A DNA stretch of 25,269 nucleotides from a virus: positions 1-25,269 of the IMG/VR virus record IMGVR_UViG_3300021964_000478. One strand, written 5' to 3'. The number at the start of each line of letters is the position of its first letter. Positions within the stretch are counted from its first letter, which is position 1. The notes below the pieces were generated by a model. The model was given only the letters and a program-made list of their open reading frames with translations, did no database searches and had not been told where the DNA came from. Made by a program: the position numbers and the translations under genes. Positions 1 through 22,166 of this stretch are shown here, piece after piece.

Positions 1-1166
1 TCAAAGAGTTCGGCTGGACAAATCCGATCCTGATCGATGAAAACAACGGCATTATTGCCGGGCATGGGCGCTTACAGGCCGCACAACGCTTGGGCGAGTC
101 CAACGTGCCAACAATCGTTTTGACAGGGCTTACAGACGCTCAGAAACGCGCTTATGTGATCGCTGATAACAAGCTGGCTCTCAATGCTGGCTGGGATAAC
201 GATATGCTGGCGGTCGAGATTGCTGATTTGATCGAGGAAGGCTTTGACCTTGACCTCACTGGTTTTGATGGGGATGAAATCGACAAGCTGCTCGCCGATG
301 GCAAAAAGATCGATGGCTTGACCGACGACGATGATGTGCCGGATGTGCAAGACGAGACTGTCTCAAAGCTGGGTGATGTTTGGTCGCTTGGCAGGCACAC
401 ACTGGTTTGCGGTGACAGCTGCAGCACAGAGGTGCTTGATAAGCTGATGGCGGGTCGGAAGGCAGATATGGTTTTCACCGATCCGCCATGGAACGTTAAT
501 TACGGTGCGGTCGATAAGGGAAACGCGCAGGGGTATAAACCACGCACGATCCTGAACGACCATATGCAGGCTGATGACTGGCAACAGTTCTGCAACGACA
601 TCGCCAACAGCCTGTATATCTGCACAAAGGCTGGCGCACCGATTTATGTCGTGATGTCAGCGCAAGAATGGCCTGTCATACACGGCTCGCTCAACGCCGC
701 AGGCTTTCACTGGTCAAGCACAATCATATGGGCAAAGGACTCGCTGGTTCTCAGCCGCAAAGACTATCACACGCAGTATGAGCCGATCTGGTATGGCTGG
801 AACAGTTCAGCCGCACGACTGGTTGAACTGGAGGATCGCAAGCAGTCAGACGTTTGGTCAATGGAAAGGCCAAAGCGGTCAGATCTGCATCCGACTACAA
901 AGCCAATCGAACTGGTTGAAAGAGCAATCAACAACAGCGCAAAGGCTGGTGGGATCGTGCTGGACTTGTTCGGTGGCTCAGGCTCGACACTTATTGCCTG
1001 TGAAAAGACGGGGCGTGATTGCAGAACCGTTGAGCTTGATCCCAAATATGCCGACGTGATTATCAGACGGTGGCAAGAGTTCACTGGTGAAAAGGCAACG
1101 CACACTGACACGTTCATGAGCTTTGATGAGATAGAAAATGGCAAGACCTCACAAGACGAACAGTAA
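1..1166 (+). CDS. ParB-domain DNA methyltransferase, 5'-truncated
   Basis: The gene enters from outside the window; the open frame runs from base 3 with 387 codons visible. The first part (IIAGHGRLQAAQRLG) is the core of a ParB/sulfiredoxin-type N-terminal domain, followed by an acidic linker at about bases 290-360. The second part is an N4/N6 DNA methyltransferase: catalytic motif IV TDPPWNVNY begins near base 477, HPTTKPIELVERAI near 888, and the SAM-binding motif LDLFGGSGS near 960. Motif IV precedes motif I, the beta-class order. It should methylate cytosine N4 or adenine N6; DPPW does not decide which. The frame is intact and no restriction endonuclease lies next to it, so I infer an orphan phage methylase, perhaps protecting phage DNA or marking it for packaging. 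It overlaps the terminase small subunit gene by 29 bases. Confidence 0.93.
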   Translation, partial: KEFGWTNPILIDENNGIIAGHGRLQAAQRLGESNVPTIVLTGLTDAQKRAYVIADNKLALNAGWDNDMLAVEIADLIEEGFDLDLTGFDGDEIDKLLADGKKIDGLTDDDDVPDVQDETVSKLGDVWSLGRHTLVCGDSCSTEVLDKLMAGRKADMVFTDPPWNVNYGAVDKGNAQGYKPRTILNDHMQADDWQQFCNDIANSLYICTKAGAPIYVVMSAQEWPVIHGSLNAAGFHWSSTIIWAKDSLVLSRKDYHTQYEPIWYGWNSSAARLVELEDRKQSDVWSMERPKRSDLHPTTKPIELVERAINNSAKAGGIVLDLFGGSGSTLIACEKTGRDCRTVELDPKYADVIIRRWQEFTGEKATHTDTFMSFDEIENGKTSQDEQ

Positions 1167-2006: not shown

Positions 2007-2030
2007 ACGCGCTAGTCCCTCATAGCGCGT
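2007..2030 (+). promoter_or_regulatory. RNA hairpin ahead of the terminase large subunit
   Basis: ACGCGCTA (2007-2014) pairs perfectly with TAGCGCGT (2023-2030) around an 8-base loop. There is no T-run after it. It lies 16 bases before the ATG at 2047 and contains part of an alternative GTG start (2029), so it may modulate translation. The role is inference. Confidence 0.5.
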
Positions 2031-2046
2031 GGGATTGGGCGGGTTT

Positions 2047-3438
2047 ATGGCTTCGATAGAGGACACCATTCTGCGGCTGCGGAATGACCCTGTTTTATTT
2101 GTTGAGAGCGTTATTGGCGCAAAGCCGCAAACTTGGCAGCGCGAGGCTCTTGAGGCGATAGCTTCAAATGACAAGCTGGCGATCAAATCCGGTCACGGCG
2201 TTGGTAAAACGGCGTTTGAGGCATGGGTGACGCTCTGGTGGCTGTTGACGCACTATCCCTGCAAGATTGCGGTGACGGCGAACACAGCGCATCAGTTGAA
2301 CGATGTGTTGTGGACTGAGATTGACAAATGGGCGCGTGAGCTTCCAAAGGGCTTCAAAGATCTTCTTGAGTTCAAGAGCGACAAGATCAGCCTTTCGGGG
2401 GCGAGTGACAGCTTCGCGGTTGCGAGAACATCTCGCCGCGAGAACCCAGAAGCCTTACAGGGCTTTCATAGCGAGAACATGCTGTTCATTTGCGAGGAAG
2501 CATCGGGCATCCCTGATGTGGTGTTCCAGGTCGGCGAGGGTTCGCTCTCAACGCGAGGGGCGAAGGTTTTGATGTGCGGAAACCCGACAAGGGCGGACGG
2601 CTATTTTTATGACGCGTTTCATTCGCATCGTGAGATGTGGAAATGCTTGACGGTGAGTTGCGAGGATGCAGATACAGTCTCTGAAAACTTTATTGCGGAC
2701 ATGGCGGCAAAATATGGCGTCGACAGCAATGTATACAGGGTGCGTGTCAGCGGTGAGTTCCCGACTCAATCGGACGATGTTTTGCTGCCATTACACCTCG
2801 TTGAAGCTGCGACTAGGCGCGAGATTGAGATGGCACCGACTACGCAGACGGTTTGGGGGCTGGATGTTTCGCGTTATGGCGGAGACAGAACGGCGCTTTG
2901 TAAACGTCAGGGCAACGTGGTCATTGAGCCGGTCAAGACGTGGCAAAACAAAGATCTGATGGAGCTGGCGGGGATCATCCTGTCGGAGTATGAGGCAACT
3001 CGCTATATGGATCGTCCAAGCGCTATTTACATCGATAGCATTGGGATTGGTGCTGGTTTGGCTGATCGTCTCGCTGAGTTGGATCTGCCTGCGATTGGGA
3101 TTGCGGTGTCTGAGAGTCCCAGCCTCAAAGAAAAATTTGTAAGGCTGCGGGACGAATTGTTCTGGAAGGCACGAGAGTGGTTTGAAGGGCGGGACGTCAA
3201 GATCCCGAATGATGAAACCCTCATCAGCGAAATCACAGCCGTCAGGTATAAATACCAGTCCACCGGCAAGCTCAAGATTGAGAGCAAGGATGAGATGAAG
3301 CGGCGGGGGCAACGCAGCCCGGACGTGGCTGATGCGTTTGTGCTGACAATGGCGGCAGAGGCTGCGACAGCATCGGGGCATCATAGCCGTTGGAACAGCC
3401 GCACCCCCATCCAGAGGGATCTGTCATGGGTGATATGA
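2047..3438 (+). CDS. terL: Phage terminase large subunit
   Basis: 463 residues from the ATG at 2047; a GTG at 2029 in the same frame sits within a hairpin and is less likely. The N-terminal ATPase has Walker A SGHGVGKT (residues 48-55), Walker B MLFICEEA (about 144-152, with catalytic Glu) and motif III VLMCGNP (about 174-180). The C-terminal RNase H-like nuclease shows GLDVSRYGGD (Asp 273), AIYIDSIGIG (Asp 330) and SPDVADAF (Asp 426/429), the expected acidic cluster. It drives ATP-dependent packaging of DNA into the capsid through the portal and cuts concatemers. Length and motif order fit a full-length large terminase. It follows the putative small subunit and precedes the portal. Confidence 0.96.
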   Translation: MASIEDTILRLRNDPVLFVESVIGAKPQTWQREALEAIASNDKLAIKSGHGVGKTAFEAWVTLWWLLTHYPCKIAVTANTAHQLNDVLWTEIDKWARELPKGFKDLLEFKSDKISLSGASDSFAVARTSRRENPEALQGFHSENMLFICEEASGIPDVVFQVGEGSLSTRGAKVLMCGNPTRADGYFYDAFHSHREMWKCLTVSCEDADTVSENFIADMAAKYGVDSNVYRVRVSGEFPTQSDDVLLPLHLVEAATRREIEMAPTTQTVWGLDVSRYGGDRTALCKRQGNVVIEPVKTWQNKDLMELAGIILSEYEATRYMDRPSAIYIDSIGIGAGLADRLAELDLPAIGIAVSESPSLKEKFVRLRDELFWKAREWFEGRDVKIPNDETLISEITAVRYKYQSTGKLKIESKDEMKRRGQRSPDVADAFVLTMAAEAATASGHHSRWNSRTPIQRDLSWVI

Positions 3439-3713
3439 ACGACAATATTTTGAACTTTCCAAAGCGCGGCGCGAATGATGATGAGATCAGCGTGACGGTA
3501 TCGCTAGAGGAAGAGGGCATATCGCAGGCGTTTGATACGCTCCGGCTGGCGGCGGTCGGGCTGATGAACGACAAGTATACACCGGTCGAGGCTGGGGACA
3601 TCGTTCATGGCTCTATAATATTGATAAGCTGGATGGCAAAAGAGTCCGGCGTTACGGTCGCCGAACTCTTGGAGTTTTTCAAAAGCATCGAGCTGGAGGA
3701 CTTTGAGGACTAG
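3426..3713 (+). CDS. Small acidic phage protein, unknown function
   Basis: 95 residues from the ATG at 3426, preferred because AGAGGG at 3413-3418 lies 7 bases upstream; a second ATG at 3435 gives an ATGA overlap with the terminase stop and is possible. The protein is acidic, with a conserved-looking start (NILNFPKRG) and a helical second half (EAGDIVHGSIILISWMAKES, then ELLEFFKSIELEDFED). There are no cysteines or membrane segments. It is translated from the same message as the terminase, and its stop codon overlaps that of the minus-strand gene that follows. Function unknown. Confidence 0.75.
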   Translation: MGDMNDNILNFPKRGANDDEISVTVSLEEEGISQAFDTLRLAAVGLMNDKYTPVEAGDIVHGSIILISWMAKESGVTVAELLEFFKSIELEDFED

Positions 3714-3868
3714 GCCTCTTGAGCAATCTCAATGATCTGATCGTTGTAGAGGCAAATATCAGATTTAAAGATCTCAAGCTCTTTAACGAAGTCTAGCAGA
3801 CTCTCGACCACAAAGGTTTCGGTGAGGTGCTTGCCACTCTTGTTATATTTGACGTGGATTATATGCAT
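3710..3868 (-). CDS. 52-residue minus-strand protein, unknown
   Basis: Reading the minus strand from the ATG at 3868 gives 52 codons and TAG at 3712-3710. AGGAGG sits 6 bases before the start (3875-3880). The product starts MHIIHVKYNKSGKHLTETF and continues into a helix (ESLLDFVKELEIFKSD) and an acidic end. A perfect ribosome site and a clean frame make it a convincing gene despite its size. It lies 10 bases after the 85-residue gene, whose stop codon adjoins this gene's ribosome site, so the two are probably co-translated. Its stop overlaps the stop of the plus-strand gene (3711-3713). Function unknown. Confidence 0.8.
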   Translation of the reverse strand: MHIIHVKYNKSGKHLTETFVVESLLDFVKELEIFKSDICLYNDQIIEIAQEA

Positions 3869-3878
3869 GGGGTTCCTC

Positions 3879-4136
3879 CTAGTAGGCAGTTACTTTTGTC
3901 AGGATCATTTCTTTGTATGCAATGCATTCATAAGATTTGCCTTTAGCCATGTAGAGGCATCCGTCTGATCCGATTTTGAAGAGGGGCTTTCCGGCATCCT
4001 CCCAAGCCTTACGGTGCTTGGCCTTAATGTCGGTGTATTTAAGCTGGGTTGCGATCCGAACAGTCAGGCCGTCATCGAGCTTGCTCATGATCCAATCGTA
4101 AGCCTTTTGAGCTTTTGTTTGGTTTGATTTGGTCAT
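3879..4136 (-). CDS. 85-residue minus-strand protein, unknown
   Basis: The ATG is at 4136 with AAAGGAGG ideally placed upstream on the minus strand. The protein is basic at its N-terminus (TKSNQTKAQKAYDWIMSK), with a central helical region (RIATQLKYTDIKAKHRKAWE) and a C-terminal compact part (GKPLFKIGSDGCLYMAKGK, then YECIAY). The pattern 'AG-PLFKI--DG-LYM-KGK' gives the impression of a small phage-specific fold, but I cannot name it; a DNA- or RNA-binding regulator is possible. It is the first gene of a two-gene minus-strand unit in an otherwise plus-strand morphogenesis block, so it is likely expressed at a different time. Confidence 0.85.
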   Translation of the reverse strand: MTKSNQTKAQKAYDWIMSKLDDGLTVRIATQLKYTDIKAKHRKAWEDAGKPLFKIGSDGCLYMAKGKSYECIAYKEMILTKVTAY

Positions 4137-4234
4137 TTCGTCCTCCTTTATTGTCTAACTACCATGCGCCTTATTTACCCTATAGTAAACTATAAAAAGC
4201 AATAAAATCGTATAAAAACAACGAGTTATGCAAA
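4137..4234. promoter_or_regulatory. Divergent AT-rich control region
   Basis: This segment separates the minus-strand pair from the rightward genes and is markedly AT-rich (runs such as TATAAAAAG and TATAAAAAC). Promoters for both directions are expected here because the two flanking starts point away from each other, but I cannot pair a convincing -35 with a -10 at normal spacing on either strand. Confidence 0.5.
4174..4189. promoter_or_regulatory. Inverted repeat, candidate operator
   Basis: TTTAC (4174-4178) and GTAAA (4185-4189) form a perfect dyad with a 6-base spacer in the middle of the divergent region. It is placed where a repressor could control both directions. No candidate repressor is evident apart from the adjacent small proteins. 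Confidence 0.35.
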
Positions 4235-4522
4235 ATGCCAAAGAAAAAAGACCCACGTCTGACAAAGCTGGGGCTGGATCGCTATAACCAATGTAAACGC
4301 ACCCCCAGCCACCCCACAAAAAGCCATGTGGTTGTTGCAAAAGAGGGCGACAAGGTCAAAACCATCCGGTTCGGGCAGCAGGGCGTCAAAGGGTCTGCGC
4401 CTAAAAAGGGCGAGAGCAAAGCGGCAAAAACCCGCAGAGCTTCATTCAAAGCAAGACACGCATCAAACATCTCAAAGGGCAAAATGTCAGCCGCATATTG
4501 GGCTGAGAGGTGCAAGTGGTGA
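4235..4522 (+). CDS. Small basic phage protein (DUF6321-like)
   Basis: 95 residues, very basic. It begins MPKKKDPRLTKLGLDRYN and contains the blocks KRTPSHPTKSHVVVAKEG, IRFGQQGVKGS and the ending SKGKMSAAYWAERCKW. These blocks resemble a family of small phage proteins with the IRFGQQGV core that I recall as DUF6321; the name is from memory. The abundance of Lys/Arg suggests binding to nucleic acid or a virion role. It is the first gene right of the divergent region, with only a weak ribosome site (GAG about 12 bases upstream). Confidence 0.85.
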   Translation: MPKKKDPRLTKLGLDRYNQCKRTPSHPTKSHVVVAKEGDKVKTIRFGQQGVKGSAPKKGESKAAKTRRASFKARHASNISKGKMSAAYWAERCKW

Positions 4523-14397: not shown

Positions 14398-14740
14398 TTG
14401 GGAACGGTGCGCACCATACATTGAAGCCGCATTAGAACACGCTCATGGCACTCACACGCTTGATGATGTTTTACAGCTTGTTGCTGCTGGTGAGGCGCAA
14501 TTCTGGGCGTTTAAGAATGCAGCAATTGTTACTGAGATTATCCGCTACCCGCAACGCACTATTTTGCGGTTTTGGTTGGCTGGCGGTGATCTTGACACAC
14601 TGATAAAGGCAGAGCCAGAGATCATTGAATGGTCGAAGCAATGGGGCTGTCAGTCGGTGGAAATATTTGGGCGCAAAGGATGGGTTCGCGCTCTCAATGG
14701 CTATGAGCCAACATCAACCATAATGGTAAAGGACTATTGA
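14375..14740 (+). CDS. GNAT-like phage protein (T7 gp13-like?)
   Basis: 121 residues from the ATG at 14375. Sequence order helix (DDWERCAPYIEAALEHA), beta strands (AQFWAFKNAAIVTEIIRYPQ, ILRFWLAGGDLDTL) and helix/strand (EWSKQWGCQSVEIFGRKG, WVRALNGYEP) gives the topology of an N-acetyltransferase-like domain without a clear acetyl-CoA P-loop (R/Q-x-x-G-x-G/A). Podoviruses of the T7 group encode a similar small protein needed for virion assembly. An assembly role is therefore more likely than catalysis. Confidence 0.6.
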   Translation: MTTSSLDDWERCAPYIEAALEHAHGTHTLDDVLQLVAAGEAQFWAFKNAAIVTEIIRYPQRTILRFWLAGGDLDTLIKAEPEIIEWSKQWGCQSVEIFGRKGWVRALNGYEPTSTIMVKDY

Positions 14741-14741
14741 T

Positions 14742-15485
14742 ATGAGCAAAGGCGGCGGCGGAGGCGGTGGTCAGCAAACTGTGAACACACAAGTTGAGCC
14801 ACCTAGCTATGCTAAACCATTCTTGGAGTTTGGTCTGGCTGAAGCAAAAGACCGGTATACATCAGGCGATCCAAACTATTACACAGGCAGCACTGTTGTT
14901 GGATTTTCGCCTGAAACAGAGATGGCGCTGACCGGCATTCGGGACGAAGCGCTTGACCCAAACAGCATGACTGCGCAGGCGCAAAATATTGTGCAGCAAA
15001 ACCTGATGGGGACAAACCCGCTTTTATCAGCCGCCTTTAAGCCAGCGATTGATCAGGTGACAAGTCAATTTTCGAAGTATGGTAGATATGGGTCTGGCGC
15101 AAACCAGCAGGCACTAGCGAGTGCGCTTGCCCCGATTTCATATCAAGCACAACAGGACGCACTAGCGCAGGCACCACAAGCGGCTCTCATGGACGAGAAG
15201 CTCCTGACCGGTGTTGGCGAGGCAAGAGAAGGTCTGGCGCAGGCTGAACTGCAAGACAACATCAATCGATTTAACTTTGAGCAAAACCAGCCGATGCAAA
15301 ACCTGAAGGACTACATGGCAATCGTTGGCGGTGGAACTGTCGGAAGCAACACCATTGAGCCTGTCAACCGCAATTCAGCCTCATCTGCTTTAGGCGGCGC
15401 ATTGGGTGGCGCTCAACTTGCTCAGTCTGCTGGGTTCAACCCGATGTATGGCGCAATCGGCGGTGGCCTTTTGGGTCTGGTATAA
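14742..15485 (+). CDS. Putative internal virion (ejection) protein 1
   Basis: 247 residues. The N-terminus is a Gly run (MSKGGGGGGGQQ), then PPSYAKPFLEFGLAEAKD, a helical Gln/Ala-rich middle (NQQALASALAPISYQAQQDA) and a hydrophobic Gly-rich C-terminus (SSALGGALGGAQLAQSAG, then YGAIGGGLLGLV). The composition and position just before two other large Ala/Gly-rich proteins suggest an internal head protein ejected with the DNA. No catalytic motif. The ribosome site is weak. Confidence 0.68.
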   Translation: MSKGGGGGGGQQTVNTQVEPPSYAKPFLEFGLAEAKDRYTSGDPNYYTGSTVVGFSPETEMALTGIRDEALDPNSMTAQAQNIVQQNLMGTNPLLSAAFKPAIDQVTSQFSKYGRYGSGANQQALASALAPISYQAQQDALAQAPQAALMDEKLLTGVGEAREGLAQAELQDNINRFNFEQNQPMQNLKDYMAIVGGGTVGSNTIEPVNRNSASSALGGALGGAQLAQSAGFNPMYGAIGGGLLGLV

Positions 15486-19667: not shown

Positions 19668-22166
19668 ATGAGCAGTTTATTCGGAATTGGCGGCGGCGGT
19701 AACGTAGGTGCGTCTGGCAGCTTTTACCCATACAGCATTGACCAGTCTCTGCGGTTTCCAAACACTGATAGTGGAAGCGGTAATGCATATCTAAATCGCA
19801 CACCGTCATCTGCAAGCAACCGCAAAACTTGGACATATAGCCTTTGGGTAAAGCGGTCAAAATTGGGCAGTGGTGGTGCAAATCAAAGCCAACTTATCTG
19901 GGCGGCATTTGATGGCGGTGATGCTGACCAATTTCAATTTGGTGATGATAATACTCTAAGATTTTATCTTAATGATGCTGTAAATGCTAGTATTATAACC
20001 ACTGCTGTTTACCGTGATGTTTCATCTTGGTATCATATTGTTTTATCAGTAGATACAACCCAAGCAACAGCGGCTGACCGTGTAAAATTCTATGTGAATG
20101 GTGAACAGGTAACAAGTTTTTCAACCGCTACATACCCATCACAAAATTATGATACAGATTGGAACAGCAATGTTGTTCACGCAATCGGTCAAAGTGCTAG
20201 AATAAATAGCGCACAGTTTTTTTGCGGCTACCTAGCCGAAGTCAACTTTATTGACGGCACAGCCCTAGACCCAACCAGCTTTGGCGAAACCATCAACGGT
20301 GTGTGGGTGCCAAAAAGATACAGCGGGTCATACGGCACTAACGGTTTCTATCTGCCGTTTGATGACAGCAGCGCAATCGGTGACGATGAAAGCGGCAACA
20401 CCAATGACTGGACTGCCAACAACCTAGCCGCCAGCGATGTCGTGCCGGACAGCCCGACTAATAATTTTCCTGTTCTTATTCCGGGCTTTACTCAAACAAC
20501 ACAAGAAGGCGGTTTGAAATTAAAAAGAAGCTCAACAGGGAATATTCATACTGGTTGTTTTTCAACAATGGGTGTTTCTAGCGGCAAGTGGTATGTTGAA
20601 ATAAAATACGAGGATTCAGGAATAGACACAGTGACGTTTGGGGTCGCAGAAACAAAAGGGGGGTTTGACCCAGCGGTTGATGGTACTGCCTATGTTGAAA
20701 CCTCAGGAATATCCTCTAACACGCATATGGAGTTTGCAACTTGGAGTGTCGAGGCCAAATTGTCTAGCTCATATGCTGGCACACTTGGTTCCGCAGGCTC
20801 GTATGGAAGTTCACCGTCAAGCGGTGACATCATTCAAATTGCTTTAGATATGGATGATAAAAAGATTTGGTATGGCGTCAACGGAACATATATTGCGTCT
20901 GGTGACCCAGCTAGTGGAACCAATGCATCACAAAGCGGGTCGGCCTTTAACCCAACAGGTGAGGTTGTTTTTGTTGCTTCAGCTTATTTGGGTAGAGATT
21001 TTTCTATATCTTTTAATTTTGGTCAAGACAGCGCAAATGTGTCTTCTGCGAACACAGATGAAAACGGAATTGGCACGTTTGAATATGCCCCACCATCTGG
21101 CTTCTTAGCCCTATGTTCAGCCAACCTACCAGAACCAACCATCAGCCCAAATGCTGAGGCACAGGCTGACGATTACTTTAACACTGTGCTGTATACTGGA
21201 AACAGCGGAACAAATGCCATAACTGGTGTTGGTTTCCAGCCCGATTTTGTTTGGGCAAAAAGCAGAACAACAGCCTATCCACCCGAATTATATGATGTTA
21301 TTAGGGGGCAAAATAGAATGTACTCAAGCGCAACTACCGCTGACGCTATTGGCTCAATAACATCTTTTGACAGTGATGGTTTTACGCATACTAGCGGCTC
21401 CATAGGCACTAATGCTAGTGGTGATAGCATTGTCGCTTGGAACTGGAAAGCTGGCGGCACAGCAGTCAGCAACACTGATGGCAGTATTACGTCAAGCGTA
21501 TCGGCTGCACCCGATGCTGGGTTTAGTATAGTTAGCTATACTGGCACAGGCGCTAACGCCACTGTGGGTCACGGTCTGACACAAAAACCTGAATGGCTTG
21601 TAACCAAATCAAGGGACAGTTCGTTAAATTGGAGTTTTCTGCAAATTAACGATATGACCACAGATAAAGTAATGGCTTTACAAGCAACTAATGCTGAGTT
21701 CAGCAGTGCAGGTTCATTTATTGAAAGCGATTTTACTGCGACAACTTTTGGCGTAGGCACTGAAACACCAACCAACAAAAGTGGCGATGATTTTATAGCC
21801 TACTGTTTCCACAGCGTTGAAGGCTACAGCAAGGTCGGCAGTATGGAATTAAACAATAACGCCGATGGCACATTTGTCTATTTAGGCTTTCGCCCCGCAC
21901 TCGTCATCGCCAAGCGCATTGATGGCACGGGTGATTGGAACATATTTGACAGCACCAGAGATGCTTTCAACGATGGCGACTTAGATTTATTGCAAGCGAA
22001 TACAACAACTGCTGAAAGTGCATTTGCAGCGTCACCGATTGATTTATTATCAAACGGCTTCAAGCTGAGGCATACAAGCGCAAACGGTTATGTAAATGCT
22101 GCGTCAGATACGGCAATCTACCTTGCCTTTGCCGAACAGCCATTCAAATACGCCAACGCCAGATAG
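19668..22166 (+). CDS. Modular tail fibre/spike with LamG- and SPRY-like domains
   Basis: 832 residues. A Gly-rich start is followed by a LamG/concanavalin-like domain (residues about 40-210: RKTWTYSLWVKRS, WYHIVLSVDTTQ, VKFYVNGEQVTSF, FCGYLAEVNFIDG), a linker with NDWTANNLAASDVVPDSPTN, a SPRY-like domain (about 290-460: SGKWYVEIKYEDSG, IALDMDDKKIWYGVNG) and, from about residue 505, three related modules marked by FQPDFVWAKSR, KPEWLVTKSR and RPALVIAKR. Both folds commonly bind glycans, so it likely recognises the host surface. Bases about 19,900-20,250 and 20,480-21,060 are visibly AT-richer, with different codon use than neighbours, suggesting transfer. Confidence 0.85.
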   Translation: MSSLFGIGGGGNVGASGSFYPYSIDQSLRFPNTDSGSGNAYLNRTPSSASNRKTWTYSLWVKRSKLGSGGANQSQLIWAAFDGGDADQFQFGDDNTLRFYLNDAVNASIITTAVYRDVSSWYHIVLSVDTTQATAADRVKFYVNGEQVTSFSTATYPSQNYDTDWNSNVVHAIGQSARINSAQFFCGYLAEVNFIDGTALDPTSFGETINGVWVPKRYSGSYGTNGFYLPFDDSSAIGDDESGNTNDWTANNLAASDVVPDSPTNNFPVLIPGFTQTTQEGGLKLKRSSTGNIHTGCFSTMGVSSGKWYVEIKYEDSGIDTVTFGVAETKGGFDPAVDGTAYVETSGISSNTHMEFATWSVEAKLSSSYAGTLGSAGSYGSSPSSGDIIQIALDMDDKKIWYGVNGTYIASGDPASGTNASQSGSAFNPTGEVVFVASAYLGRDFSISFNFGQDSANVSSANTDENGIGTFEYAPPSGFLALCSANLPEPTISPNAEAQADDYFNTVLYTGNSGTNAITGVGFQPDFVWAKSRTTAYPPELYDVIRGQNRMYSSATTADAIGSITSFDSDGFTHTSGSIGTNASGDSIVAWNWKAGGTAVSNTDGSITSSVSAAPDAGFSIVSYTGTGANATVGHGLTQKPEWLVTKSRDSSLNWSFLQINDMTTDKVMALQATNAEFSSAGSFIESDFTATTFGVGTETPTNKSGDDFIAYCFHSVEGYSKVGSMELNNNADGTFVYLGFRPALVIAKRIDGTGDWNIFDSTRDAFNDGDLDLLQANTTTAESAFAASPIDLLSNGFKLRHTSANGYVNAASDTAIYLAFAEQPFKYANAR

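Follow-up and report, generated by a model that had tools for sequence, protein, structure and literature searches.

We analyzed a window of 25,269 bp, the whole of the virus record IMGVR_UViG_3300021964_000478, which represents a fragmentary genome, and focused on two small genes encoded on its minus strand. The plus strand carries the genes for the small terminase, the large terminase (2029..3438; phrog_5902, 2.5e-65; phrog_2, 5.7e-49), an SU10-type portal (Pfam PF23899, 4e-202) and further downstream genes. The large terminase gene forms the upstream flank of the two-gene island and is followed on the same strand by a short gene at 3426..3713, named FPK here after the ...FPK... motif of its product, with 95 codons from the ATG at 3426 or 107 from a TTG at 3390. 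The right flank is a plus-strand gene at 4235..4522 that matches phrog_7595 (unknown function; 3.8e-37). Both FPK and phrog_7595 are core genes of this phage group, and FPK is found alike in relatives with and without an island. Directly 5' of the small terminase gene, positions 3-1166 (plus strand) encode a fusion of a ParB-like nuclease domain with an N6/N4 DNA methyltransferase. The virus is a marine tailed phage whose host is probably alphaproteobacterial; a link to Roseobacter comes solely from a homologue of the first island gene.

The island consists of A85 (3879..4136, minus strand; 85 codons) and B52 (3710..3868, minus strand; 52 codons), separated by ten bases (3869-3878). These two frames and their spacing had been proposed in the initial annotation and could be confirmed, as could the near-perfect ribosome sites: AGGAGG lies 5 nt before the ATG of A85 (4142..4147, minus strand), where it is kept in the related loci L003, L085 and L005, and 6 nt before that of B52 (3875..3880, minus strand). 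The latter site shares bases with the stop codon of A85 (TAGGAGG), which suggests that translation of the two genes is coupled, B52 probably depending on A85 in this way. The B52 stop (3710-3712) has two bases in common with the opposing FPK stop (3711-3713), the two stops sharing the palindromic CTAG. The island was further said to run against all other genes and to face an AT-rich region; indeed, the remaining long credible genes of the window are all on the plus strand, and positions 4137-4234 have a GC content of 32%, against 51% for the window. Its placement inside the morphogenesis block also holds, with the minor correction that the directly convergent neighbour is not the terminase gene but FPK, which lies between terminase and island. 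The island itself has 42% GC; on a 500-bp scale, GC near 3750 is as low as almost anywhere in the window, with similar values only at 19.7-20.4 kb. That other stretch (19700-20400) falls within an 832-codon gene at 19668-22166.

As both ORFs are small and unmatched in curated family libraries, they could in principle have arisen by chance and lack any function. Nevertheless, in 3000 dinucleotide shuffles of the 447-bp insert, a pair of ATG-initiated ORFs of at least 50 amino acids, both on the same strand and preceded by strong ribosome sites, arose just twice, and both families have distant homologues and signs of purifying selection (see below). Chance can thus be practically dismissed, and the coding evidence indicates that both ORFs are real genes.

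Upstream of A85 lies a conserved AT-rich stretch (4137..4234, minus strand), the putative promoter and leader, which is common to islands with different genes. An identical 22-nt leader, AGACAATAAAGGAGGACGAAAT, precedes the first start codon in the window, L003, L085 and L005, and the 70 nt before it show 81-97% identity among these four loci; past the start codon only L003 and L085, which have genes in common, remain alike, and identity drops to 29-36% in the other pairs. Within this stretch we located a putative sigma-70 promoter (4189..4216, minus strand; TTTATA-16-TATAGT), whose -10 element is covered by the palindrome TATAGTTTACTATA (4181-4194), identical in L003, L005 and L085, which may be an operator or a pair of overlapping divergent -10 elements. 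The hexamers of the window match the consensus at 9/12 positions, no better than in shuffles, and it is therefore conservation, of the -10 element and the palindrome in all four loci, that supports the promoter. The equivalent in the complete relative C72C1 is TTGACA-18-TATAGT, which matches at 11/12 positions, better than any other sigma-70 candidate in the C72C1 genome. The island's own promoter is probably active. The sequence ACTATAGGG resembles a promoter of T7-like RNA polymerases, a candidate that was rejected: the window contains the motif a single time, C72C1 has no annotated RNA polymerase, and a 16-mer taken from the motif was found in only 6 IMG/VR contigs, three of them from this phage group; the matches in L083, L086 and L087 are probably due to chance.

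At the other end, a simple terminator scan gave no minus-strand match after B52. A 12-bp hairpin (3640..3670, minus strand; fold z -2.8) is located downstream of B52, inside the FPK coding sequence, and is kept in L026, which has no island, and in L003, there with a compensatory change of the top pair from G-C to A-U. The U tail of the hairpin is short and weak, and the hairpin fails the scan, but it may possibly act as a weak terminator of the island transcript.

We then compared the locus in relatives of the phage, eighty collected with the large terminase of the window and eighty with that of C72C1, some contigs being in both sets; the survey covers what the IMG/VR pattern scans returned. 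L026, the closest of the relatives whose interval is complete, has a terminase 99% identical to that of the window, and its FPK and phrog_7595 genes are separated by 25 bp, compared to 521 bp in the window, from which it follows that the island was inserted, or lost, between otherwise adjacent genes. Over 122 loci, the interval from the terminase stop to phrog_7595 is bimodal, measuring either less than 400 bp or at least 567 bp. Among the 43 distinct occupied intervals, minus-strand genes backed by ribosome sites are present in 18. In other lineages, including L073, L077, L082, L123, L128 and L154, the interval holds long plus-strand genes (172-893 codons) and no minus-strand cassettes.

The presence/absence difference between the window and L026 is discrete (496 bp), as would be expected if the island were a selfish mobile element, such as a transposon, homing element or satellite, instead of cargo exchanged by recombination. 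However, no nuclease, integrase or recombinase gene was found, neither terminal repeats nor a target duplication could be found, and the window holds no Rfam intron, which makes such an element very improbable. The same spot is occupied differently in other relatives: L003 has three other minus-strand genes, L085 has other minus-strand genes in an interval that ends at the contig end, and L005 has genes of 63 and 55 codons. Moreover, the histories of leader and cargo disagree. The window and L085 have leaders that are 97% identical and different genes; L003 and L085 have genes that are 86% identical, with leaders at 81%; and L003 and L005 combine 91% identical leaders with unrelated genes. This is direct evidence of recombination between the two: the cargo behind the leader has been swapped. 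Together, the empty site in L026, the other cargo at the same spot, the conserved leader of its own and the foreign composition bear out the initial view of an accessory island, and we regard it as nearly certain that the island is an exchangeable accessory cassette.

Similar cassettes are found elsewhere in the group. In the C72C1 lineage, minus-strand cassettes with changing genes are located on the other side of FPK, between it and the terminase gene, with a common promoter-like sequence (TTGACA or TTTACT, 18 nt, TATAGT/TATATT). Overall, cargo families recur at four places, always on the minus strand: before the small terminase gene (L098, L092), between terminase and FPK, between FPK and phrog_7595, and downstream of phrog_7595 (L012, L013, L021-L023). 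C72C1 itself (L088, OQ984150) has two minus-strand cassettes with matching promoters. The second, a two-gene cassette at 14417-14822 (minus strand) between the replication initiation and small terminase genes, has a promoter related to the terminase-side one, and the loci collected contain about 30 matches to its first gene, on the minus strand wherever this is shown. In the same genome, the major capsid gene is split by a group I intron (25495-25735; RF00028, 81.8 bits), and the record labels the two halves of the gene as separate major head proteins; three small minus-strand ORFs annotated over and beside the intron are probably spurious. A further gene of such islands (phrog_3754, unknown function; 151-159 codons) is present in L014 (4612-5091, minus strand), L016 (2926-3381, minus strand) and L017, with relatives in L012, L013, L022 and L023; its GDC...H pattern looks like that of a small cysteine peptidase, and the spacer of its promoter contains the palindrome-like TGCATATATGCA.

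Regarding the proteins themselves, neither A85 nor B52 has a match in Pfam, PHROG, NCBIfam or PADLOC. When 33 island proteins were searched against PADLOC, Pfam and NCBIfam, nothing convincing was obtained, and PHROG matched them only to families of unknown function. A85 is homologous to gp08 of the Roseobacter phage CRP-902, a hypothetical protein (41.5% over 82 residues, E 5e-10), and to proteins in eight IMG/VR contigs (L165, 54%; L166-L172, 40-45%), and a search of bacterial genome contigs returned no bacterial homologue. In CRP-902 and its kin, the homologue is part of a run of small genes after the primase/polymerase and methyltransferase genes, without B52. In L165 it belongs to a divergent small-gene run adjoining the terminase genes, and in L166 it is a lone divergent gene opposite the terminase genes, accompanied by TTGACA...ATATAA and a terminator-like repeat. 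The dN/dS of 0.046 between L166 and L169 indicates purifying selection on the A85 family.

B52 has homologues in L002 and L173-L177 (61-63% over 27-28 residues), contigs from a different type of phage in which they belong to arrays of small genes. In L005 and L006, in addition, the final gene of the island matches B52 with borderline sequence scores (E 0.2-0.65), and these genes are the two best matches outside the family among 21,897 ORFs. The gene of L006 occupies the same place as B52 does in the window and has the same overlapping stop; from position and these scores, both genes are probably related to B52. Between L005 and L006, dN/dS of the island genes is 0.11, again indicative of purifying selection.

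The initial annotation had treated the two genes as a unit, possibly forming a complex, a claim that fell to the refuting observation named there: no contig with a homologue keeps both frames, each gene being conserved singly. The relatives of A85 (L165-L172, CRP-902) and those of B52 (L002, L173-L177 and probably L005 and L006) are in disjoint sets of contigs, and since the two never co-occur apart from the window, they are not an obligate pair and an obligate complex was discarded. These distributions also bear on whether A85 and B52 are accessory proteins of the virion or its assembly, sited among their partners. The island does lie in the morphogenesis block; however, it is on the opposite strand with its own leader, and the homologues elsewhere are found among non-structural small genes, so that we consider a virion role quite unlikely.

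The AlphaFold2 model of A85 (pLDDT 86.8, pTM 0.76) predicts a helix and a small beta-barrel, and fold searches returned only weak small-barrel resemblances, none above Z 4.7, to Hfq and to barrels of WYL-type/Sm-like and designed SH3-like proteins. The protein is basic, with 16 K+R versus 9 D+E. A nucleic-acid-binding small barrel of this kind, with its weak Hfq and WYL/Sm likeness, or the minus-strand transcript itself, might control the late operon by convergent or antisense transcription, and the convergently overlapping stops of island and FPK fit such regulation. Nevertheless, the close relative L026 lacks the island entirely and cargo differs totally between relatives, which renders a regulatory role unlikely.

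The model of B52 is of lower confidence (pLDDT 76.6, pTM 0.50) and predicts a beta-beta-alpha-beta arrangement. Among the short chains that it covers over almost their full length are Dmd of T4-like phages and Gp2, phage inhibitors of host proteins (RB69 Dmd: Z 4.7, 48 of 64 residues; Gp2: Z 4.0). A further such chain is p56, the uracil-DNA glycosylase inhibitor of phi29-like phages (PMC3794593), which has, like the low-confidence B52 model, a three-stranded sheet and one helix, and aligns with Z 5.3/5.1 over 46-47 of 48-50 residues (rmsd 2.2 over 46). The p56 family forms a dimer whose helix blocks the DNA cleft of Ung. In sequence, B52 has no similarity to p56 or Dmd, and p56 is absent among the hmmsearch matches of the B52 profile in PDB chains at E 10. 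In Foldseek, p56 ranks second for the B52 model, a weak match with E 0.30. Matches of both island proteins to known structures are weak throughout, with a Foldseek E of 0.3 or higher and a Z that stays below 8, and the B52 model scores as highly with designed proteins and subdomains of enzymes as with p56, Dmd and Gp2. The models thus offer faint indications that B52 could be a mini-protein of a shape common to the phage inhibitors p56 and Dmd, and we take the fold resemblances of both proteins as leads rather than identifications.

The locus can be compared with known systems. Morons are accessory transcription units (PMC4378225), and the island is like them in having extra genes between genes adjacent in a relative (L026) and a base composition unlike that of its neighbours (42% vs 51% GC). 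Its absence from the near-identical L026 would fit dispensability, and the promoter-like hexamers in the leader that the four loci conserve may represent a promoter of its own, those of the window alone matching at chance level. For the usual terminator of a moron, the island has the conserved 12-bp hairpin with its weak U tail, which gave no match in the scan. A closer parallel is the anti-CRISPR operon of Mu-like phages of Pseudomonas aeruginosa, which sits in the region of genomic plasticity G (PMC4378225) and has a very similar upstream sequence in all carriers, while its gene complement varies (PMC4704812). Both loci have small variable genes with low GC at a constant place flanked by conserved head genes, and a similar upstream promoter sequence before gene sets that differ among related phages. 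The island differs in being transcribed against the late genes and in having no homology to known families. No HTH family match to an Aca-type helix-turn-helix regulator was found in A85 or B52, the A85 model being a beta-barrel. Not every anti-CRISPR locus includes an aca gene. The initial description of the function as undescribed applies to both proteins but not to the kind of locus, which is already known.

A85 also resembles Tab of Pseudomonas phage JBD26, a moron of 83 residues that is encoded on the minus strand between the small and large terminase genes, has a promoter to itself, is expressed from the prophage and is paired with an anti-Tab gene (PMC10884400): the two are similar in size, on the minus strand of the terminase block and convergent with a small plus-strand gene. 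In contrast to anti-Tab, FPK is a core gene that occurs without the island, and was discarded as a self-immunity partner for that reason. The parallel suggests that the island could act on other phages, by superinfection exclusion or interference with assembly, as Tab does, given the size, orientation and neighbourhood that Tab shares with A85 (PMC10884400) and a separate promoter that would permit expression outside the lytic programme. Against this, A85 and Tab (JBD26 gp0031) show no homology (BLASTP E 0.010 as a single pair; HHalign probability 2.4%). Moreover, no integrase is annotated in C72C1, and a terminase search turned up no closely related prophage in bacterial genomes, prophage terminases being only distantly related (39-53%) apart from a single 76% match on an 8-kb MAG contig, so that a role based on lysogeny is unsupported. 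Overall, we consider competitor exclusion improbable, if less so than regulation.

We thus favour, with reasonable though limited confidence, the island as a horizontally exchanged moron-type operon with its own promoter, acting in host takeover or counter-defence. A fixed AT-rich leader with a promoter resembling those of host sigma-70 would drive a two-gene minus-strand message within the late plus-strand module, and homologous recombination in the leader and the flanking core genes would swap or drop the cargo while the start signal is retained. Expression would be early or independent of the late programme, with A85 and B52 presumably acting as small binders of host proteins. Given an exchangeable cassette and an active promoter, we rate takeover or counter-defence at slightly better than even, because the cargo turns over between close relatives, its expression is probably separate from that of the late genes, and its relatives are found in arrays of early type; such turnover would be best explained by adaptation to variable hosts. 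More tentatively, the phage group may keep promoter-anchored docking sites near the terminase and portal genes, where pooled minus-strand mini-proteins, counter-defence or takeover inhibitors of many new families, are swapped behind a leader that serves as the recombination handle.

The uncultured marine phage group with this locus is common in IMG/VR, and comparable loci have yielded anti-CRISPR and other anti-defence proteins. The A85 and B52 proteins are new to family libraries, and their families, together with about thirty sister proteins, almost all unannotated, are candidates for screens of takeover and counter-defence functions in marine bacteria. The locus offers a signpost to them, with a conserved leader and flanks and genes behind that vary from phage to phage; if the docking-site reading is true, the leader DNA could be used to fish new anti-defence genes from metagenomes.
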